A stretch of DNA of 64,000 nt. Source: Trichocoleus desertorum NBK24 (GTDB lineage Bacteria > Cyanobacteriota > Cyanobacteriia > FACHB-46). The notes beneath the pieces are model-generated. The model had not been told where the DNA came from. It was given only the letters and a program-made list of their open reading frames with translations, and searched no databases. Location of the stretch: positions 343,628 to 407,627 of the forward strand of contig NZ_CP116619.1 in NCBI RefSeq assembly GCF_030409055.1, written 5' to 3'. Of the stretch, positions 6,359-23,047 are shown piece after piece; the first letter of the stretch is position 1, and the number at the start of each line of letters is the position of its first letter. The position numbers and the translations under genes are program-made.

Positions 6359-7243
6359 ATGAGACGTATCGAAGGGAAATTTAAGGGATTCGGTGGACTC
6401 GATCTCTATTATCAAAGTTGGCATCCAGACGCACAAGTCCAAGCCGTGGTGGTCATGGTGCATGGCTTAGGAGCGCATAGCAGCTTGTTCAACCAGGTAG
6501 TGCAATATTTGGTAGGACAGGAATATGAGGTTTATGCCTTTGATCTCCGGGGTCATGGACGCTCCCCTGGCCAGCGAGGACATATCGGGTCATGGGCCGA
6601 GTTCCGAGAAGATCTGCGCGCATTTCTCCAACATATTCAGACTCAACGCGCTAGTTGCCCTTGTCCTTATTTCTTGTGGGGACATAGTTTGGGCGGTACG
6701 ATCGCGCTGGATTATGCCCTGCGATCGCCAGATCCTTTACAGGGGTTGATTGTCTCCGCCCCCGCTCTGAGTAGAGTTTCTGTCTCCCGTGGCAAGCTCA
6801 TGATAGGAAAATTGCTTTCCGGTATCTTTCCCCACTTTAGTTTGCGATTAGGCATTCCTTCTAATTTAGGATCGCGAGATCCCACCCTAGTGCTTAGCTA
6901 CACTCAAGATCCGCTCCGACATGAGTATGGCAGCGCCCGATTAGCTACAGAATTTTTTATGACTGTGGATTGGATCTACAAACATGCCTCTGATTTGCAA
7001 ATTCCTTTGTTGCTGCTTCATGGTAGTGCCGATCAGGTCATTCATCCGGAAAGTAGTCGTGCTTTCTTTCAGCAAGTCATGTTCTCCGACAAAGAACATC
7101 ATGAATACCCAGGGTGTTATCACGATCTCTACGTAGATGTAGATTACCAAAAAATGTTTACAGACTTAGAGAACTGGCTAGAACGGCATCTAACAGGAAG
7201 TCCAGCTTGTGAGGCTTTAGGGCTTTGCACAGTGCGGTACTAA
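6359..7243 (+). CDS. Alpha/beta hydrolase, monoacylglycerol-lipase-like
   Basis: 294 residues from ATG 6359 (GGAG at 6348-6351; a GTG one codon earlier is possible). Serine-hydrolase landmarks: the oxyanion region VVVMVHGLGAHSS, YAFDLRGHGRSPG, the nucleophile elbow LWGHSLGGTIAL, the acid in LLLHGSADQVIHPESS, and the catalytic His in YPGCYHDLYVD. The order and spacing match the Hydrolase_4 / monoglyceride lipase (lysophospholipase PldB) group. It would release free fatty acid from monoacyl-glycerides or lysolipids. A lipid role is attractive because a beta-oxidation cluster begins 0.9 kb downstream on the same strand, but they are separated by a strong hairpin. Confidence 0.85.
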   Translation: MRRIEGKFKGFGGLDLYYQSWHPDAQVQAVVVMVHGLGAHSSLFNQVVQYLVGQEYEVYAFDLRGHGRSPGQRGHIGSWAEFREDLRAFLQHIQTQRASCPCPYFLWGHSLGGTIALDYALRSPDPLQGLIVSAPALSRVSVSRGKLMIGKLLSGIFPHFSLRLGIPSNLGSRDPTLVLSYTQDPLRHEYGSARLATEFFMTVDWIYKHASDLQIPLLLLHGSADQVIHPESSRAFFQQVMFSDKEHHEYPGCYHDLYVDVDYQKMFTDLENWLERHLTGSPACEALGLCTVRY

Positions 7244-7300
7244 CTTGCAGAGAGGTTAGTTAGAGTTCAAAAAATCATTCAAGCCATTTCTAACTTTCAT

Positions 7301-7346
7301 AATTTTTCAGGTGAAGTTTACTCTGATCAACCTCACCTGAAAAATT
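7301..7346 (+). terminator. Perfect 14-bp inverted repeat after the hydrolase gene
   Basis: AATTTTTCAGGTGA (7301-7314) and TCACCTGAAAAATT (7333-7346) are exact complements around an 18-base loop, in which GTT and AAC can extend the stem by three pairs past one mismatch. The A/T-rich outer arms put a run of T after the GC core in both directions, so it can act as a two-way intrinsic terminator. It lies 58 bases past the stop codon. Confidence 0.7.
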
Positions 7347-8145
7347 TATGAAAAAGATAATTGCTCTAGCTTGACTAATCTTTGAGTCTAATTTTTGTGA
7401 AGTATTTTTAAGCTTAATATTAAAGTTTAATTACGGATAAATTACGATCGCTGACTACTAGCATTCTAAAGAGGTATTCCTATTAATGTACGTACCTTGC
7501 TAGGGTTTAGAGGAAGCTTATCAATCAAAATAGATGTTTTACCTAAAAAAGCATTTATTTCCACGCTATTTGTCTACTAATTAGCTCAAAAAGACTAGAA
7601 AAATTACACTTGTTCATCGTTTCTTGTCTCTCTTTTGGATGAGAAAGTGATGGGGATCAAGCCAAAATGATGTATACAGCTATTAGCCTTAACTTTATAG
7701 AGAGTTACTTTATTTCTGGTTTTGTTCAAGAAATGTATAAAAACCAATAATTTGATTCTCTTTTAGCTACACTAAATATTATCTAAAAATCTATTACTGT
7801 CAGTCTGCTAGGTATGGTACTGCCCAGGCTGAAGCTGTATAGAAACTACTGCTAATTACTACCAAGTCAAAAGGAGACACTGGGAATCGACTAGGGCTTT
7901 GGCATTAGGAGTCGTGCTTTTAAGTTTCTAACGGGTCCGCATCTAGCCTCTCTGAAGCATTGTCGAATCTTTGCCGATTTAACATCGAGCAAGCATTTAA
8001 CTTTTAGAACAGTCAAAGAAATTTGTAGTGCATTGTTCTCGTTGCATCCTTTGCGCTCCCCAAATTTCTTTTCTAGAACTCTTTGCTTTAGGGAACTAAA
8101 AATTACTGGTCGTGAGGAGAGGAGTTTTCACTCTTCTTGAGAGAG
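7347..8145. other. 800-bp AT-rich gene-free stretch upstream of the fatty-acid cluster
   Basis: No ORF with family resemblance, no tRNA and no long repeat were seen on either strand. The base composition is clearly more AT-rich than the flanking genes. It must contain the promoter and any control region of the cluster that begins at 8146. I could not pick out a convincing operator. Confidence 0.5.
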
Positions 8146-10224
8146 ATGTCGCATATGAATCAAACTTATCAGGCTCCTCCCAACTCTGGCAGGGTCGTTC
8201 TGGGGCGCACGATACCCTCATTGCTCGATGAGGCCTGTGCTCAAGCCCCAAATGCTCAAGCTTTGAATCAATGGACGGGCACACATTGGCAATCACTATC
8301 TAATCAAGCCTTTCGGACTGCTGCTACAGCCTGTGCGTTAGGTTTGCGGGAATTGGGTTTGGAGAGCGGCGATCGCGTCGCTTTATTGATGTATAGCGAT
8401 GTCAGCTTTGGTTTGGCTGATATAGGTTGTCTTTGGGCAGGTTTGGTGGATGTACCAATCGATCTCACTCACACCCTAGAGCAAATTATTTTTGTGCTGC
8501 AACATACTGAGGCCAAGGCTCTGGTCATTGCCGACCTAGAGCTATTAGCACAAATCGCGCCACATTTAAAAGAGACTCCTCACCTACAGCATATTGTGGT
8601 CGTAGATGTGCCTGAGAGCTGGACAGAGCAGCGATCGCAATGGCTCCAATCATTTCCCGTTTCACTGATGTCTCTTGATGAGCTGCAAAGTAGCAAACCC
8701 ATCCCAGAGACAAACGAGACAACGCCAGTTCTACAGGCAATCCCAAAACCCAATGATTTAGCCACAATCATCTATATTCCGGATGAAGCTGGGCAACTAC
8801 AAGGTGTCATGCTAACCCATGAGAACATCTCTATGAACGCTTTTGCCGCTTTCTCAGGTATTACTACGCTGGGCAAAGGCAACCAAGAAACAGTGCTGTC
8901 GTTTCTTCCGTTAAATCATGTGCTGGCGCGGACAATGCTCTATGGACATATCCTTTATGGGCACAGTATTTATTTCTCTAGTGCTAGCCGTCTTACCAAA
9001 CATCTCCAGGAGGTGCAGCCGACAATTTTGGTGACAGTGCCAATCGTCTTGGAGAAGACGTATACCAAGATTGTAGAGAAGGGAAGTACCAGTCGTTCTC
9101 TGCTCACTAGGCTTATCTTTCTCTGGGCTTTGGGTCTAGCCAAGCGTTATGAAATTGGTCGCCAACCCAACCTCCTATACGCTTTCCTCCTCAAAGTAGT
9201 CGATTGGTTAGTGCTGTCAAAGTGGCGATCGCTTTTGGGGGGTCGTCTTAAGTACGTGATTTGTGGTGGAGCGGCCCTCAAGTCAGAATTGGTTAATGTC
9301 TTTGCAGCGGCTGGAATTCCAATTCTACACGGTTATGGTCTTACTCAAGCTAGTGCCGTGGTGTGCTGTAATCGTGGCTCTCTTAATCGCGCAGGGACGG
9401 TAGGAGTGCCGATCGCAGGGATAGAGGTAGCGATCGCAGAAGATCATGAAGTTTTGGTGCGTGGCCCCTGTGTCACTTCCGGCTACTACAAAGACCCCAA
9501 AGCCACCCAGGAGCTAGTTGATCAGCAAGGTTGGCTACATACAGGCGACTTGGGAGCATTTACAGAAGATGGTTTCCTAAAAATTACAGGTCTAAAAAAA
9601 TCTCTGTTTAAACTCGCAACAGGTAAATATATTGCACCGCAACCGATTGAGCAGCGCTTACAACAGTTCCCGTTGGTAGCTCAAGCGATCGCCGTAGGTT
9701 CCGCCCAAAAGTTCTGTGCTGCCCTGATTGTTCCAGACTTACAGGCTCTCCATAGCTATGCTTTAGGAGTGGGGATTGATCTTCCACCTGATGCCCTCCT
9801 CACACATCCTCACGTCACAGCGTTGTATCAAGCTTTAGTTGATACTGCCAATTGTCATTTGCCTTACTGGGCGATCGTTAAACGCTTTCAACTGATCAAC
9901 CATCCATTCACCGTGGAAAACGGCTTACTAACTCCAACAGGGCAACTGAACCGTACTCAGATCAATAAAACTTTTGCTAAAGAAATTGATGCTTTGTATG
10001 GAGAATCAGAGCCAAGACGTGGGAAAGATAAGGATAAGCAAAAAGCAGCTTCTACATCTCCTCAATCTCCTGAAACTGACCTATCGGTTGTGTACCCGTC
10101 TGTTTCACCTGCTGCCTGCCCTGCCTTTGCCCAATCCTTACCTCGGATTAATCGTTTGATCACACTCATTCTTTGCACAAGTTTGACTGTGCCTCATTCG
10201 TTCGCCAGATTGCCGATTTACTAA
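8146..10224 (+). CDS. AMP-binding (acyl-CoA synthetase) homologue with degenerate catalytic motifs
   Basis: 692 residues from ATG 8146 (ATG 8155 is an alternative). The fold of long-chain acyl-CoA synthetases is clear: FLPLNHVLARTMLYGHILYG, VTVPIVLEKTY, LKYVICGGAALKSEL, VPIAGIEVAIAEDHEVLVRG, LHTGDLGAFTEDGFLKITG, GKYIAPQPIE and FTVENGLLTPTG. Catalytic positions are nevertheless changed. The Ser/Thr/Gly/Lys P-loop expected after IIY reads IPDEAGQLQG; YGLTE is YGLTQ; TGR(K/A)K is TGLKK; and the lysines expected after LLTPT are replaced (GQLNR). The frame is intact over the whole length, so this looks like a maintained pseudoenzyme, possibly a regulator or scaffold, rather than a decayed gene. 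The last 75 residues are a Lys-rich, then hydrophobic tail. It is the first gene of the beta-oxidation cluster, 47 bases before fadN. Confidence 0.8.
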   Translation: MSHMNQTYQAPPNSGRVVLGRTIPSLLDEACAQAPNAQALNQWTGTHWQSLSNQAFRTAATACALGLRELGLESGDRVALLMYSDVSFGLADIGCLWAGLVDVPIDLTHTLEQIIFVLQHTEAKALVIADLELLAQIAPHLKETPHLQHIVVVDVPESWTEQRSQWLQSFPVSLMSLDELQSSKPIPETNETTPVLQAIPKPNDLATIIYIPDEAGQLQGVMLTHENISMNAFAAFSGITTLGKGNQETVLSFLPLNHVLARTMLYGHILYGHSIYFSSASRLTKHLQEVQPTILVTVPIVLEKTYTKIVEKGSTSRSLLTRLIFLWALGLAKRYEIGRQPNLLYAFLLKVVDWLVLSKWRSLLGGRLKYVICGGAALKSELVNVFAAAGIPILHGYGLTQASAVVCCNRGSLNRAGTVGVPIAGIEVAIAEDHEVLVRGPCVTSGYYKDPKATQELVDQQGWLHTGDLGAFTEDGFLKITGLKKSLFKLATGKYIAPQPIEQRLQQFPLVAQAIAVGSAQKFCAALIVPDLQALHSYALGVGIDLPPDALLTHPHVTALYQALVDTANCHLPYWAIVKRFQLINHPFTVENGLLTPTGQLNRTQINKTFAKEIDALYGESEPRRGKDKDKQKAASTSPQSPETDLSVVYPSVSPAACPAFAQSLPRINRLITLILCTSLTVPHSFARLPIY

Positions 10225-10271: not shown

Positions 10272-12614
10272 ATGTTTAAGCCATTTCGAACCGCCGCCGT
10301 CTTGGGTGCAGGTGTGATGGGGAGCCAGATTGCTGCTCACCTCGCCAACATCGGTCTGACTGTGCATCTATTGGATCTTCCTGCGAAAACAGGGAACAAA
10401 AATGACTTGGTAGAAGGAGCCTTCAAGAAAGCCCGCAAACTATCTCCACCGATCTTTTTTATTGACAAAGTGGCTCACCGTGTCATTCTCGGTAATTTTG
10501 AAGAGCACTTCGATCGCCTAGCAAAGGTAGATTGGGTAATCGAAGCCGTGGTTGAAAATCTGGATATCAAGCAACAACTGATGCAACGCTTGGAAGGAGT
10601 GCTGCGGCCCGATGCAGTGATCTCGACTAATACCAGCGGTTTGCCGATTCATGCGATCGCAGAAGGTCGATCAGATGCTTTTCGCCAACGCTTTTTAGGA
10701 ACGCATTTCTTCAATCCACCCCGCTATCTGAAACTACTAGAAATTATCCCCACTCCTGACACTGCTCCAGAAGTGATGGCACGCACACGCTGGTTTGGCG
10801 AAACCCGTTTAGGCAAAGGCGTGGTGATTGCCAAAGACACCCCAAACTTTATTGCCAACCGCATCGGTATGTACGCCACGATGCAAGGCTTGCGAGCCTG
10901 GACAGAACAGGGATATACAATCGAAGAGATTGACACGCTGACGGGCACTTTGGTAGGGCGACCCAAATCAGCCACCTTCCGCACCGCTGACTTAGTGGGT
11001 TTAGATACGCTGATGTATGTGGCGAAAAACCTCTATCCTGCCATTTCCCACGACGAAAGCCGTGAGATGTTCCGGGTGCCAGAGGTGTTGCACAAACTCG
11101 TCACCAGTGGAGCGGTCGGTGCCAAAGCAGGACAGGGATTTTACAAAAAACAGAAGGGAGAAATTCTTTCGGTGAATCCTGAGGCGATGAGCTATGAGTC
11201 TGCCAAGCCAATGGATTTGGGCGAGGTGGAAAAATTAGGAAAGTTGCCTAGTTTGCGCGATCGCCTGCAAGCTCTATACAAAGATCCAGGTCGAGCAGGG
11301 CAGTTCTTCCGCACCACTACCTTAGACTTGCTGGGATATAGCGCCCGTCGTATTCCTGAGATTGCTGATAGCCCTGCCGATATCGATCAAGCGATGCGCT
11401 GGGGCTTTGGCTGGGATGTCGGCCCGTTTGAAATTTGGGAAATGCTAGGGTTCGACACCGTACTGGCAGATATGAAGGCAGCTAATATCTCGGTGCCTGA
11501 TTGGGTAGAAACCATGCATAGGCAGGGCGAAGCATTCGGACAATCCTCTTTGCAACCAACTACTAAGCCTACTGCCGAATCCTTCGCCCCTACGGCGGAC
11601 AAAATCAATTTAGGAGAGATTAAAACAGATCCCCAAAAGACTTTATGGCAAAACGCTGAAGCCGCTTTGTTAGATTTGGGCGATGGGGTGACCCTCTACG
11701 AATTCCGCTCTAAGGGCAATACTCTGAGCTTCAAGGTGGTAGAAGGGTTATCTGAAGTTTTGGATCTCCTGGAGAAACGGGACGACCTCAAAGGGATGGT
11801 GATTGGTAACGGTAGCGATCACTTCTCTGGTGGTGCCAATCTGGCTGAAATGGGCATGACTGCTCAATCGGGAAATCTGCAAGCGCTGGACGACTTAATT
11901 GTGCAGTTTCAGTCGATTCTGCAACGCATCCACTATGCACCCAAACCCGTTGTCATTGCCATGCAAGGACGCGCCTTGGGCGGCGGGTGTGAGCTAGTTA
12001 TGGCCTGTCCTCATGTCGTTGCCGCTGCTGAAAGCTATATCGGCTTGGTCGAGCTAGGCGTGGGTCTGATTCCCGGTGCAGGCGGCATTATGCGGAGTGT
12101 GGCACGAGTGGCAGAACGAGCTGCCAGTGAAGCAGCAGGGGACATCCAACCGTTCCTCAGAGCTGCCTTTGAAACGATCGCAATGGCTAAGGTGTCTAGC
12201 AGTGCCTACGAGGCGCAGCAGATGGGATATCTCCCCTGCGATGCTCGCATCTTGATTAGTGGTGAGAATCGCTTAGAAGTTGCCAAAGCTGAAGTTCTCC
12301 ATCTCGATCGTGCTGGGTATGCGCCCCCGCCAGAGCAGACCGCCATTATGGTCCTGGGTCGTCCCGCCAGAGCCATGCTCGAACATATTGCCTATGTCTT
12401 CCAACAAGGCGGTTTTGCCAGCGAATACGATCGCTACTTGGCAGGCAAGTTGGCTTATGTGATGACAGGTGGCGAGCTCTCCGCTCCCACTCTCGTACAT
12501 GAAGATTACCTGTTGCGCTTAGAACGGGAAAACTTCTTACCGCTCCTCAGCCAACCCAAAACTCAAGAGCGGATCGCCCACATGTTGAAGACGAAGAAGC
12601 CACTAAGGAATTAA
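10272..12614 (+). CDS. fadN: Bifunctional 3-hydroxyacyl-CoA dehydrogenase / enoyl-CoA hydratase
   Basis: 780 residues from ATG 10272 (MFKPFRTAAVLGAGVMG) with AAGGGAG upstream; the frame is open earlier but the extra residues are not family-like. N-terminal half: NAD-binding GAGVMGSQ and the dehydrogenase His-Glu pair in THFFNPPRYLKLLEIIP. C-terminal part (about 500-700): a crotonase domain with ALGGGCELVMAC and VELGVGLIPGAGG, each bearing a catalytic Glu. The dehydrogenase-first order and length match Bacillus FadN rather than E. coli FadB, where the hydratase comes first. It hydrates trans-2-enoyl-CoA and oxidises the 3-hydroxyacyl-CoA with NAD+. It is followed by fadA and fadE, the Bacillus fadNAE order. 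Confidence 0.93.
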   Translation: MFKPFRTAAVLGAGVMGSQIAAHLANIGLTVHLLDLPAKTGNKNDLVEGAFKKARKLSPPIFFIDKVAHRVILGNFEEHFDRLAKVDWVIEAVVENLDIKQQLMQRLEGVLRPDAVISTNTSGLPIHAIAEGRSDAFRQRFLGTHFFNPPRYLKLLEIIPTPDTAPEVMARTRWFGETRLGKGVVIAKDTPNFIANRIGMYATMQGLRAWTEQGYTIEEIDTLTGTLVGRPKSATFRTADLVGLDTLMYVAKNLYPAISHDESREMFRVPEVLHKLVTSGAVGAKAGQGFYKKQKGEILSVNPEAMSYESAKPMDLGEVEKLGKLPSLRDRLQALYKDPGRAGQFFRTTTLDLLGYSARRIPEIADSPADIDQAMRWGFGWDVGPFEIWEMLGFDTVLADMKAANISVPDWVETMHRQGEAFGQSSLQPTTKPTAESFAPTADKINLGEIKTDPQKTLWQNAEAALLDLGDGVTLYEFRSKGNTLSFKVVEGLSEVLDLLEKRDDLKGMVIGNGSDHFSGGANLAEMGMTAQSGNLQALDDLIVQFQSILQRIHYAPKPVVIAMQGRALGGGCELVMACPHVVAAAESYIGLVELGVGLIPGAGGIMRSVARVAERAASEAAGDIQPFLRAAFETIAMAKVSSSAYEAQQMGYLPCDARILISGENRLEVAKAEVLHLDRAGYAPPPEQTAIMVLGRPARAMLEHIAYVFQQGGFASEYDRYLAGKLAYVMTGGELSAPTLVHEDYLLRLERENFLPLLSQPKTQERIAHMLKTKKPLRN

Positions 12615-12769: not shown

Positions 12770-13951
12770 ATGCAAGATGCATATATTGTGAGCAGCGTTC
12801 GGACGGCAGTGGGTAAAGCGCCTCGCGGCACCCTCCGTAACATGCGTCCTGACGATATGGGCGCGATCGCAGTCAAGGGCGCGATCGCCAGGGTTGAAGG
12901 ATTAGAACCAGGGCAGATTGACGATGTGATCATGGGTTGCTCCTTCCCGGAAGCGGAGCAGGGATTCAATCTGGGGCGGGTAATTGCCCAGCGAGCAGGA
13001 TTGCCTGACACAGTCGCAGGTTGTACCGTAAACCGCTTCTGCGCCTCAGGATTACAGACGATCGCGATGGCGACCCAAGCGGTAATGACTGGACAAGCCG
13101 ACGTGATGGTGGCGGGTGGTGCTGAAACCATGAGCTTAATCCCGATGGGTGGTCATGCCATGCTGCCCAACCCAGACTTAATGACTTCTACGCCGCAAGT
13201 CTACTGCACAATGGGATTGACGGCGGAGAACGTGGTGCAGCAATATCACGTTTCTCGCGAAGATCAAGATGCCTTTGCTCTGCGATCGCACCAGCGAGCT
13301 TTGGCGGCGATCCAAACAGGCAAATTTGAGGAAGAAACCATCCCGCTCCCTATCCATGAGACGTTGTATGTCGATGGTGAACTCAAAACCGTAGACATGA
13401 TGTTCCAAGTGGATGAAGGCCCACGCGCGGATACCAGCATGGAAGCTTTAGCCAAACTGCCCTCTGTGTTCCGCATGGGAGGCAGTGTCACGGCGGGAAA
13501 CTCCTCCCAGATGTCCGATGGGGCTGCTGCCACAATCATCATGAGCCAACGCAAAATAGATGAGTTGGGCGTGAAACCAATGGGACGGTTGTTAGGTTTT
13601 ACCGTGGCGGGTGTGCCTCCGGAAGTGATGGGAATTGGTCCAGTCGAAGCGATTCCTAAGGTGCTTAAGCAAGTCGGCTTAACCATAGATGACATTGGCT
13701 TGATTGAACTTAACGAAGCCTTTGCTGCCCAATCTCTAGCAGTAATTCGCAAACTGGGTCTCAACGAGGAGATCGTCAACGTCAATGGTGGCGCGATCGC
13801 TCTAGGGCATCCACTCGGTATGACTGGAGCCAAACTCACTGCCACGATTCTCCATGAGATGAAGCGTCGGGGTGTGCGCTATGGCCTGGTGACGATGTGC
13901 GTGGGTGGTGGCATGGGCGCTGCGGGCGTGATTGAAAACCTGATGCTTTAG
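12770..13951 (+). CDS. fadA: Acetyl-CoA acyltransferase (3-ketoacyl-CoA thiolase)
   Basis: 393 residues, the normal thiolase length. The acyl-accepting Cys91 is in [12 protein letters not shown]; the His of [14 protein letters not shown] and the second Cys of [13 protein letters not shown] complete the active site. AGGAGAAACG precedes the ATG. It cleaves 3-ketoacyl-CoA with CoA to acetyl-CoA plus a shortened acyl-CoA, the last step of each beta-oxidation round. The cluster encodes no polyhydroxyalkanoate synthase, and the position between fadN and fadE supports degradation over acetoacetyl-CoA biosynthesis. Long antisense ORFs over this gene are composition shadows. Confidence 0.94.
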
Positions 13952-14035: not shown

Positions 14036-16489
14036 ATGATATCTATTCCCTTCGCGATCGCCCTCTCTCTTTTCCTTGTTTTCTTTCTGATTCTTGGCTA
14101 CACAGGAGTGCCGCTCTGGGCTTGGTCGCTTTATACAGCGGGTGTTTTAGCTGCTGTTCAAGCTCCTACGTGGCTGTGGGTAGGGTTTGGGATTGTAGCC
14201 CTAGTGCTGAATCTTCCTTTGCTAAGGCGATCGCTTCTGACAGCTCCCTTGATGCAGGCAATCCAATCGCTAAAGTTGTTACCTAGTATCTCTGACACAG
14301 AGAGAGCGGCGATCGAGGCAGGAACAGTTTGGGTGGATGGAGAGTTTTTCTCCGGCGCACCTGACTTAAAACGAATGAACAGTGAGCCTTATCCAGAACT
14401 GTCAGCCGAAGCTCAAGCATTTCTGGATGGGCCTGTAGAGCAGGTTTGCCGTATGGCGACGGACTGGGAAATCAATCGCCGCAAAGACTTACCGCCAGAA
14501 GTGTGGAGTTACCTAAAACAAGAGCGCTTCTTCGGCATGATGATTCCGCAGGAGTATGGTGGGTTGGGTTTCACCAATCTGACCTATAGTGCGGTGATGG
14601 TGAAGTTGGCATCGCGATCGTTTATCCATACCGCTACGGTTGGGGTGACGAATTCCCTCGGCCCCGCCAAACTCCTGCTAAACTATGGCACTCAGGAGCA
14701 AAAAGACTATTATCTCCCCCGATTAGCACGCGAAGAGGAGATGCCTTGTTTTGCCCTCACTGAACCTACTGCTGGTTCTGATGCTGCCAGCATCACCTCC
14801 GAGGGGATTGTGTTTCGGGGTGAGGATGAGAAACTGTATCTGTTGTTGAACTTCCGCAAGCGCTATATTACCTTAGGCGCGATCGCCACCCTAATCGGTT
14901 TAGCCTTCAAACTCCACGACCCCGAAAATCTTTTAGGCAAAGGAGAGAATGTCGGCATTACTTGCGCTTTGATTCCGGCGGATACGCCTGGTTTAGTCTT
15001 AGGCAAACGCCACGATCCAATGGGAGTGCCATTCTACAACTCTCCGGTTGAAGGCCATAATGTCGTAGTGTCTATCGACCAGATTATTGGTGGTAGTGCG
15101 CAGGCAGGCCAAGGTTGGAAGATGTTGATGCAAAGCTTGGCGGCAGGCCGAGGCATTAGTTTCCCGGCATCTTGTACCGGAATTGCCAAATTGGTCACGC
15201 GAGTTACCAGTGCCCACGCGGTAGTTAGACGACAGTTTGGCTTATCCATCGGTCGCTTTGAAGGCGTAGAGGAACCTCTGGCCCGGATTGCTGGGTTGAC
15301 CTACCTCATGGAAGCTGCTCGCATCTACACCTGTGCCGCTGTAGACAATGGAGAAAAGCCAGCCGTTGTTTCCGCGATCGCCAAATATCAATTCACTGAG
15401 CTATCCCGGAAGCTAGTCAACGATGGTATGGATGTCCTGGGAGGTTCAGGGATTTGCAAAGGCCCGCGCAACTTGTTAGCTAACGTCTACACCGCCATGC
15501 CGATTCCAATTACGGTGGAAGGCGCGAATATCCTCACTCGTACCTTGATGATTTTTGGTCAGGGAGCGATTCGTTGTCATCCTTATGTTTATCAAGAAGT
15601 TATAGCTCTGAATGCAGGAGACGCGATCGCCTTTGATCATGCCCTTTGGCATCACATCGGCTTGATGGTCCGCAACACCATCCGGTCAATGTTGCTGAGC
15701 CTTTCCCGTGGAGCCTTAGCTCAATCTCCCGTCTCTGGCCCAACGGCACAGTATTACCGCAAACTTGCTTGGGCATCGGCCACCTTTGCCACGCTTACAG
15801 ACATCGCCTTGATTGCTTTTGGTGGTTCCTTAAAGCGGCGAGAGAAGTTGACGGGGCGTTTTGCCGATGTTCTCTCCTGGATGTATCTAAGCATGGCAAC
15901 GCTACGACGCTATGAGGCAGAAGGACATAAAGCAGAAGATTTGCCTTTGGTACATTGGTCCATGCAGTATGCCTTTGCTCAAATTCAACTGGCATTTGAA
16001 GGGCTATTTGCCAACCTCTCGATTCCAGTTTTGGGTCCAGTTTTCCGAGGGCCAATCCTTTGGTGGTCTCGGCTCAACCCTATCGGCATACTACCAACCG
16101 ATGAACTGGGTGGTAAACTGGCTCAAAGTGTAGAAACACCGGGAGAAGTGCGCGATCGCCTTACTACCAATATCTACATTCCTTCTCATCCCGATGAAGC
16201 GTTAGGACGATTGGAGCAAGCCTTCCAGCTCTCAATTCAAGCCGAAAGTATCCTGAAAAAAATCAAAACTGCTATTCGTGAGAGTAAATTATCACCCGCC
16301 AAACCAGAACAACTGATTGATGCTGCTTTGGCAGCCGAAGTGATTACAGCGACAGAAGCCGCCCTAATCCGGGAAGCTGAATCTGCGCGTAATGAAGCGA
16401 TTCAAGTCGATGCCTTCTCGCTAGAAGAGTACCAACAAGGTGCCCAAATTACCTCTTGGCCCACTCAAGAACTGATGCAACATGCATGA
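14036..16489 (+). CDS. fadE: Acyl-CoA dehydrogenase, long E. coli FadE type
   Basis: 817 residues, close to the 814 of E. coli FadE and far longer than ordinary acyl-CoA dehydrogenases (about 380) or Bacillus FadE (about 590). The first 70 residues hold two hydrophobic segments (IALSLFLVFFLILGYTGV and the WLWVGFGIVALVLNL region), so it is probably membrane-anchored. FAD and substrate motifs: CFALTEPTAGSDAAS, the GRGISFPASCTG region, QFGLSIGRFEGVEEPLARI, LGGSGICKGPRN and VEGANILTRTLMIFGQG. The last 270 residues match the DUF1974-type C-terminal part. It makes trans-2-enoyl-CoA, passing electrons to an acceptor not encoded here (no ETF genes in the window). Confidence 0.92.
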   Translation: MISIPFAIALSLFLVFFLILGYTGVPLWAWSLYTAGVLAAVQAPTWLWVGFGIVALVLNLPLLRRSLLTAPLMQAIQSLKLLPSISDTERAAIEAGTVWVDGEFFSGAPDLKRMNSEPYPELSAEAQAFLDGPVEQVCRMATDWEINRRKDLPPEVWSYLKQERFFGMMIPQEYGGLGFTNLTYSAVMVKLASRSFIHTATVGVTNSLGPAKLLLNYGTQEQKDYYLPRLAREEEMPCFALTEPTAGSDAASITSEGIVFRGEDEKLYLLLNFRKRYITLGAIATLIGLAFKLHDPENLLGKGENVGITCALIPADTPGLVLGKRHDPMGVPFYNSPVEGHNVVVSIDQIIGGSAQAGQGWKMLMQSLAAGRGISFPASCTGIAKLVTRVTSAHAVVRRQFGLSIGRFEGVEEPLARIAGLTYLMEAARIYTCAAVDNGEKPAVVSAIAKYQFTELSRKLVNDGMDVLGGSGICKGPRNLLANVYTAMPIPITVEGANILTRTLMIFGQGAIRCHPYVYQEVIALNAGDAIAFDHALWHHIGLMVRNTIRSMLLSLSRGALAQSPVSGPTAQYYRKLAWASATFATLTDIALIAFGGSLKRREKLTGRFADVLSWMYLSMATLRRYEAEGHKAEDLPLVHWSMQYAFAQIQLAFEGLFANLSIPVLGPVFRGPILWWSRLNPIGILPTDELGGKLAQSVETPGEVRDRLTTNIYIPSHPDEALGRLEQAFQLSIQAESILKKIKTAIRESKLSPAKPEQLIDAALAAEVITATEAALIREAESARNEAIQVDAFSLEEYQQGAQITSWPTQELMQHA

Positions 16490-21778: not shown

Positions 21779-23047
21779 CTGGTGGGGGGACAGAGGAGGT
21801 TCTAAGGCAGAGGTGACAAGGCCTTGAGGGACAATAGGCCAAGAAAGAAAGGTCCCCGCTTGTTGAGAAGACCTTCCACCATAAAGATGCCTGAATTCTA
21901 CCAAACTCATCTGCGCTCCTGCCTGAGTCCCGCTCAATTTCTCCTACTCCTGTTGGTGATTCAACTCCTACAAACCCTCAAAACCGTCAAGCTCGAATCC
22001 CTGGCCGCTAATCTGCCAATTCCGATTCAAAGCGAGAGCCGTTTGCGGAAGTTGAAACGCTTTTTGAGTTTGAGCGAATTCACCTTTGAACGCCTCTGGC
22101 ATCCGATTCTAGTGGAACATTTACACCGGGCTCATGCACCGGGTGCGAGCATCTATGTGGCTCTAGACCGCACTCAGTGGAAGCAGACAAATTTATTAGT
22201 GCTCAGTTGGGTGCAATCTGGACGAGCCATTCCCATCTACTGGATAGAACTGTCACATTTGGGAAGCAGCAATTTTAAGGAACAAAAGAAGTTGTTACTC
22301 AAGGCGTTGCGCCCTCTGAAGGAGTACAAAGTCGTCGTCCTAGGCGACCGTGAATTTTGCTCGGTCAAACTCGCTCGATGGCTGAACTATCAGGAGGTCT
22401 ATTGTTGTTTACGCTTACGCTGCCATGAATACTTGCAACAGTTCAATGGGGACTGGCAGCAACTCAAACAGCTAGGTTTGAAGCCCGGAATGCAGGCATT
22501 CTTTCGGGGGGTCAATGTGACTAAAACTCATCAAGTCAGTGGCTTTCAGGTGGCAGCCTGTTGGCGAGGCAAATACCGAGGCAAAGTCGCTAAAGAAGGT
22601 TGGTTCTTGTTAACCAACTTGTCATCCTTGCAAGCAGCAACTCGAGCCTATGCCAAGCGCATGGGCATTGAGCAGATGTTCAGAGATTGTAAAAGCGGAG
22701 GTTATCACCTGGAGGGAACCGGGCTCAAAGGCAATCGCTTAATTGCCTTGTTGTTAGTCCTGACTTTGGCCTATGGAGCGGCAACTTTTGTGGGACAAAA
22801 ACTGCGTCAACGAGGAGTGGCTCATTACATTGCTCGTCCCTCCCAATCGCCACGAAGTCGCCCGAGACATAGCCATTTTTATACGGGTTTGTATGCCTAT
22901 GGCTGGGTCAACTTTGCTGACACCTGTGCGGATTTAGTGAATGCCTTATTGCAACTGAGCCCTGGAAAACGACCGTTTTATCAACGAGGTCAACGGGCTA
23001 TGTCTCTGATTCGCTCTACTTTGTAAGCCCTTCTGTCCCCCCACCAG
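21779..23047 (+). mobile_element. Complete IS4-family insertion sequence, about 1.27 kb
   Basis: The terminal inverted repeats CTGGTGGGGGGACAG (21779-21793) and CTGTCCCCCCACCAG (23033-23047) are exact complements over 15 bp, flanked by the 9-bp duplication GTGGCGAAC. One intact transposase gene is inside. The ends differ from those of the element at 669-1932, so the two are separate IS species of one family. The insertion lies about 50 bp beyond the 3' end of lysS and does not disrupt it. With perfect repeats and an intact gene, it looks recent. Confidence 0.9.
21887..23026 (+). CDS. IS4-family transposase
   Basis: 379 residues from ATG 21887 (MPEFYQTHLRSCLSPAQ). The catalytic DDE set: Asp in LDRTQWKQ, Asp in LGDREFCSVK, and Glu in YAKRMGIEQMFRDCK, which fits the IS4 Y-x2-R-x3-E-x6-K signature. 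The frame extends upstream to 21824, but those residues are basic leader and unlike the family. It aligns along its whole length with the transposase at 772-1914 (for example SHLGSSNFKEQKKLLL against SHSGSSGLAQQQAVLR). The gene is intact and likely functional. Confidence 0.9.
   Translation: MPEFYQTHLRSCLSPAQFLLLLLVIQLLQTLKTVKLESLAANLPIPIQSESRLRKLKRFLSLSEFTFERLWHPILVEHLHRAHAPGASIYVALDRTQWKQTNLLVLSWVQSGRAIPIYWIELSHLGSSNFKEQKKLLLKALRPLKEYKVVVLGDREFCSVKLARWLNYQEVYCCLRLRCHEYLQQFNGDWQQLKQLGLKPGMQAFFRGVNVTKTHQVSGFQVAACWRGKYRGKVAKEGWFLLTNLSSLQAATRAYAKRMGIEQMFRDCKSGGYHLEGTGLKGNRLIALLLVLTLAYGAATFVGQKLRQRGVAHYIARPSQSPRSRPRHSHFYTGLYAYGWVNFADTCADLVNALLQLSPGKRPFYQRGQRAMSLIRSTL

Follow-up and report, generated by a model that had tools for sequence, protein, structure and literature searches.

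What does a protein with the fold of an acyl-CoA ligase do at the head of a beta-oxidation operon when its adenylation residues have been lost? This question is raised by a gene in the window analysed here, a 64,000-nucleotide stretch of the Trichocoleus desertorum NBK24 genome (NZ_CP116619.1, positions 343,628 to 407,627) in whose own numbering all positions are given. No beta-oxidation pathway has been identified so far in cyanobacteria (PMC11837247), and the canonical pathway has been described as seemingly absent, yet fatty-acid degradation genes are upregulated in far-red light (PMC10830646). In cyanobacteria that carry fadN, the starting step of the pathway is occupied by an apparent ex-ligase, which raises the further question of how fatty acids get activated.

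The gene, here called the pseudo-ligase, lies at 8146..10224 on the + strand and encodes 689-692 amino acids, depending on whether translation begins at the ATG at 8146 (692 codons) or the ATG at 8155 (689 codons). The first-pass annotation had described an intact frame of 692 codons ending 47 bp upstream of fadN, and both the open frame and the distance from its stop to the fadN ATG at 10272 were confirmed. Pfam searches gave matches over the cut-offs to PF00501 (AMP-binding, 2.8e-56) and PF23562 (AMP-binding_C_3, 8.9e-11), the pairing of AMP-binding and C-terminal domains that defines the ANL superfamily fold, and found no DNA-binding or signalling domain. AlphaFold2 predicted a full acyl-CoA-ligase fold for the window protein (pLDDT 88.5, pTM 0.87) and for the orthologue L116 (pLDDT 85.7, pTM 0.85). 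Both models align with 4-coumarate:CoA ligase bound to AMP and CoA (5bsr) and with 5bst over 494-500 residues at about 3 Å (window model against 5bsr: Z 43.9, 498 residues, 3.0 Å), and with several ATP- or adenylate-state structures over the N-terminal domain only. The models thus agree with a protein that may be held in the thioester-forming state, although this may also reflect a bias of the AlphaFold method.

All of the replacements reported in the first-pass annotation (P-loop IPDEAGQLQG, YGLTQ, TGL and GQLNR) are present in the window protein. The family comparison covered 390 sampled cyanobacterial genomes of the class; 70 orthologues were fetched and aligned, and 59 entered the per-position conservation counts. 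The A3 motif or P-loop (8773..8805, +) reads YIPDEAGQLQG in place of the canonical YTSGTTGxPKG, and no orthologue covering the region matches the pattern [ST]SG[ST]TGxPKG. The loop is degenerate across the clade, with residues 210-212 and 214-216 in the 65th-85th entropy percentile of the 59 aligned sequences and insertions inside it in L016 and L126. In the A8 region (9586..9630, +), TGLKKSLFKLATGKY, the window protein reads ITGLKKSLFK; the arginine is lost while the loop including K486 is kept. At position 480, where an active ligase has Arg (DR or GR) before the K/D hinge, the 59 sequences have V, L, C, Q, Y, M, I, S or the like. In the A10 region (9919..9954, +), NGLLTPTGQLNR, it reads LLTPTGQLNR without the catalytic lysine. 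The clade contains no TLK(L)KR-type motif, this lysine motif being lost or deleted among the 70 aligned orthologues, with the region missing altogether in several members. Neither the canonical P-loop nor the A8 arginine occurs in any aligned orthologue covering those columns (up to 70). As identical losses recur across the clade, they are not due to chance.

Other parts of the active site are kept. The A7 motif TGD (9541..9549, +) is present in 59/59 sequences, as are the YGLT of the A5 motif and K486, and the family is invariant at G371-G372-A373, Y394-T397, T463-D465 and H255/R259. Within the A8 loop, K481, K482, F485, K486, L487, G490 and Y492 are likewise found in 59/59 orthologues. In firefly luciferase and 4CL, the first half-reaction depends on the A10 lysine and the second on the A8 lysine. 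With TGD, YGLT and GGA invariant, along with the lysine-bearing A8 loop, the loss is restricted to parts that act in the first half-reaction, namely the triphosphate loop, the A8 arginine and the A10 lysine; computationally, the putative nucleoside pocket (adenine/ribose elements) and the A8 loop predicted to serve the second half-reaction are invariant. The earlier statements that every checkable position had changed and that all catalytic motifs were lost therefore hold for the P-loop, the A8 arginine and the A10 lysine, but not for TGD, YGLT, GGA, H255/R259 and the A8 loop. The substitutions are fixed among orthologues at the same three adenylation sites and not at A5 (9334..9348, +), where the window protein has YGLTQ; the fifth residue of this motif is Glu in 30/59 sequences and Gln in 29/59, and the change to Gln is for that reason a later, lineage-specific one. 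A further substitution, absent from the first-pass annotation, turns HxxER into HxxAR, with A258 fixed in 59/59 orthologues and Glu in the outgroups. Taken on its motifs, the pseudo-ligase is very probably not a ligase, although some low residual activity may persist.

Motif losses of this kind could also mark a gene in recent decay, and several lines of evidence make that reading almost certainly wrong. A protein search found orthologues in 73/390 genomes, and the family is monophyletic (SH-aLRT 100, with a stem of ~1.0 substitution per site in short-search trees), a single clade that rules out convergent losses. Canonical motifs were seen in Aas of this genome (L004), in Aquitalea (L021), in other outgroups and in 14 relatives within Cyanobacteriota (L176-L189), which are termed non-photosynthetic because they belong to the phylum but fall outside the class. 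The fetched flanks of the ligases of these 14 relatives contain no fadN, and no orthologue adjoining fadN carries the canonical motifs, so the losses are not a local decay. Comparison with two congeners gave dN/dS values of 0.103 and 0.083 for the pseudo-ligase and 0.094 and 0.06 for fadN (482-483 codons). With dN/dS about 0.1, fixation across the clade and nearly all frames intact, a pseudogene is ruled out, and the pseudo-ligase is, computationally, kept by purifying selection. Apparent frame breaks or truncations occur in L106 and L146, loci that are otherwise syntenic, and represent assembly error or decay. Adenylation would have been lost only once, near the start of the radiation that gave rise to the beta-oxidising cyanobacteria, the single origin being given by the trees.

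Downstream, the window encodes a fadN-like 3-hydroxyacyl-CoA dehydrogenase / enoyl-CoA hydratase (10272..12614, +; PF02737, PF00725, PF00378; NCBIfam FadB-type), a fadA-like acetyl-CoA C-acyltransferase (12770..13951, +; TIGR01930 over cut-off) and a fadE-like acyl-CoA dehydrogenase with a hydrophobic N-terminus (14036..16489, +; NF007000 at 1040 bits, cut-off 600). The next gene downstream is fadN in 67/70 orthologues, mostly ~20-280 nt away, and the remaining three lie at the very end of a contig or close to it; where the contig is long enough, fadA and fadE come next. FadN homologues occur in about 18% of the sampled cyanobacterial species. Across the 390 genomes, 70 have both pseudo-ligase and FadN, 3 the pseudo-ligase only, 2 fadN only and 315 neither (Fisher p 6e-71, calculated without phylogenetic correction), the five exceptions being for the most part matches truncated by the end of a contig. 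The pseudo-ligase is most likely a near-obligate partner of FadN-FadA-FadE. Together, the fixed losses and the low dN/dS support the core of the first-pass annotation, which had proposed that a ligase homologue without catalytic function was retained in association with the fad cluster. Orthologues with canonical motifs beside fadN, which that annotation had named as a refutation, did not turn up. The fad region of the window is flanked by two similar transposase-like ORFs (748-1914 and 21824-23026, +).

Two features extend the earlier description of the locus: an upstream lipase with fusions in three lineages, and a conserved C-terminal motif. The lipase gene (6359..7243, +) encodes a monoacylglycerol-lipase-like alpha/beta hydrolase that matches PF12146 at 5.3e-70, keeps its nucleophile elbow (GHSLGG, of the form GHSxGG) and has monoacylglycerol lipases as its best PDB matches. 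A same-strand lipase lies upstream in 34 orthologous loci, including three (L015, L103, L114) where it is fused in frame to the N-terminus of the pseudo-ligase. In 14 orthologues for which 2.5 kb or more of upstream sequence was available, no same-strand lipase was found there, and it is for this reason a frequent rather than obligate neighbour; 22 further loci had too little upstream sequence to judge. In this genus there is no gene call in the ~0.9 kb between lipase and pseudo-ligase (7244-8145), while in some other genomes the two are 0-150 nt apart or fused. Several genomes also encode a second hydrolase-like protein of ~500-550 aa, which either precedes the lipase or is joined to it (L123, L137, L138, L140, L148-L150; upstream in L125, L127, L131 and L152) and resembles a cyanobacterial alpha/beta hydrolase (GQSFGG). 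A 70-aa piece of this protein had no Pfam match.

At its extreme C-terminus, after a variable low-complexity linker predicted to be disordered, the pseudo-ligase carries CPAFAQSL (10117..10140, +), an instance of a motif CPxxA(Q/R/K)SL that is conserved in most orthologues and is often preceded by a second CPxxP. Within the fetched loci (1.44 Mb), CPxxA[QRK]SL was found in 47 distinct sequence contexts, all in the pseudo-ligase family. Searched genome-wide as a DNA pattern, the motif was uninformative as a signal (13 matches vs 11 in a reversed control). It is predicted to be partly ordered (pLDDT about 80 in the window protein and 65 in L116, after a linker below 50), forming a short structural element identical in both AlphaFold2 models. 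The tail is absent from a deep branch of the family (L123, L130, the L137-L150 group and others). Its role may be that of a docking motif, a reactive cysteine or a heme-type CP motif.

A canonical FadD query (E<=1e-25) against 36 fadN-positive genomes returned, in nearly all of them, the pseudo-ligase and one ORF of Aas length, with an additional similar place in a few genomes and the pseudo-ligase only in one. These second places were called Aas by length and score, and by sequence in the present genome only. No canonical FadD relative besides the Aas-like ORFs was found in the 36 genomes at this threshold. A whole-genome PF00501 search of the present genome gave nine places: the pseudo-ligase, Acs (L002), Aas (L004), FAAL (L006), an acetoacetate-CoA-ligase-like ORF below the family cut-off (L008), three very long frames interpreted as NRPS modules, and a 497-aa frame that we take to be MenE. 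A second canonical FadD was not among them. Since neither search gave a candidate beyond Aas, the acyl-CoA used by FadE is left without an obvious dedicated source. Aas of Synechocystis is reported to make acyl-ACP (PMC11973298, which cites Kaczmarzyk and Fulda 2010).

How, then, might a fixed non-ligase contribute? The explanation that we favour, and to which we give about an even chance, is that the pseudo-ligase acts with FadN-FadA-FadE as an adaptor that binds CoA or acyl-CoA. CoA binding and the adaptor role are both suggested indirectly, by synteny, the lipase fusions and the kept half-site. The protein would use the nucleoside pocket and A8 loop to bind CoA or acyl-CoA and would hold acyl thioesters or CoA between the upstream lipase as donor and the Fad enzymes as acceptors. 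The CPxxAxSL tail would be a docking or gating element, and acyl activation itself would be performed elsewhere, by Aas. The kept pocket and loop and the lipase fusions are at least as compatible with such an adaptor as with a pure regulator, and perhaps more so. The first-pass annotation had suggested a ligand sensor or a scaffold for the Fad enzymes, and a regulator of the fad operon responding to acyl-CoA, acyl-AMP or AMP would account for a protein at the head of the operon that kept ligand-binding elements and lost catalytic ones; as it has no detectable DNA-binding or signalling domain and the lipase fusion fits a metabolic role better, we consider this improbable. An active ligase with unusual residues would sit exactly where a FadD is needed and would explain the intact fold and remaining pocket residues, but the P-loop, A8 arginine and A10 lysine are all lost, the P-loop is interrupted by insertions in L016 and L126 and A10 is deleted in several members, making this reading very unlikely.

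Two further explanations, each carrying a small but appreciable probability, give the pseudo-ligase a more direct part in acyl-CoA supply. Alpha/beta-hydrolase-fold transacylases are known, for example PhaG, and lipase and pseudo-ligase may together form a lipid:CoA transacylase in which CoA attacks the acyl-serine intermediate of the lipase, independently of ATP. The three fused ORFs, the 34 loci with a lipase upstream, the lack of a canonical FadD beyond the Aas-like ORFs in the 36 fadN-positive genomes and the kept thioester half-site all speak for such a reaction, which would however be energetically uphill and would have to proceed in several lineages with no lipase nearby. Carried further, beta-oxidation might bypass ATP-dependent activation, with acyl groups from membrane lipids passing from the lipase acyl-enzyme to CoA on the ex-ligase and on to FadE-FadN-FadA, an extension that we regard as unlikely. 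Alternatively, as inactive paralogues often regulate active ones and Aas is the sole canonical long-chain ligase found beside it, the pseudo-ligase could be an allosteric partner that shifts the acceptor of Aas from ACP towards CoA or determines where Aas is located. Against this, Aas exists without a pseudo-ligase, as in Synechocystis (PMC11973298).

In Chlorogloeopsis fritschii PCC 9212, four consecutive beta-oxidation genes rise about 10-fold in far-red light, and the same four rise further in rfpBC mutants (PMC6424891); it is plausible that these are the pseudo-ligase/fad operon. A literature search covering few subscription journals found no description of a pseudo-ligase of this FadN-linked family. 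The family turns a vague gap in cyanobacterial acyl-CoA formation into a defined, testable protein set, and it looks like a clear example of how losing one half-reaction can give an ANL-superfamily enzyme a new use.

Among known proteins, the best NCBIfam match is to long-chain fatty acid-CoA ligases of the FadD11/FadD15-like type (NF038343), below the cut-off. The ligases of Aquitalea (L021) and of the 14 non-photosynthetic relatives (L176-L189) share the fold, full-length homology at 32-39% identity and the A4, A5, A7 and A8 sequence, but keep SGTTG..KG, ITDRKK and TPTLKxKRR, all three of which the pseudo-ligase clade has lost; moreover, the clade adjoins fadN, whereas the fetched flanks of L176-L189 contain none. 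Aas (slr1609 type; L004) resembles the pseudo-ligase in belonging to the ANL superfamily, in its link to fatty-acid metabolism and in occurring in the same genomes, but it has canonical motifs, lies elsewhere in the genome and is 28% identical. Finally, Bacillus-type fadN-fadA-fadE operons have the gene content and order of the cyanobacterial cluster, which differs from them in having the pseudo-ligase, and in many loci a monoacylglycerol-lipase-like gene, at its head, and in encoding a FadE of the large E. coli type.
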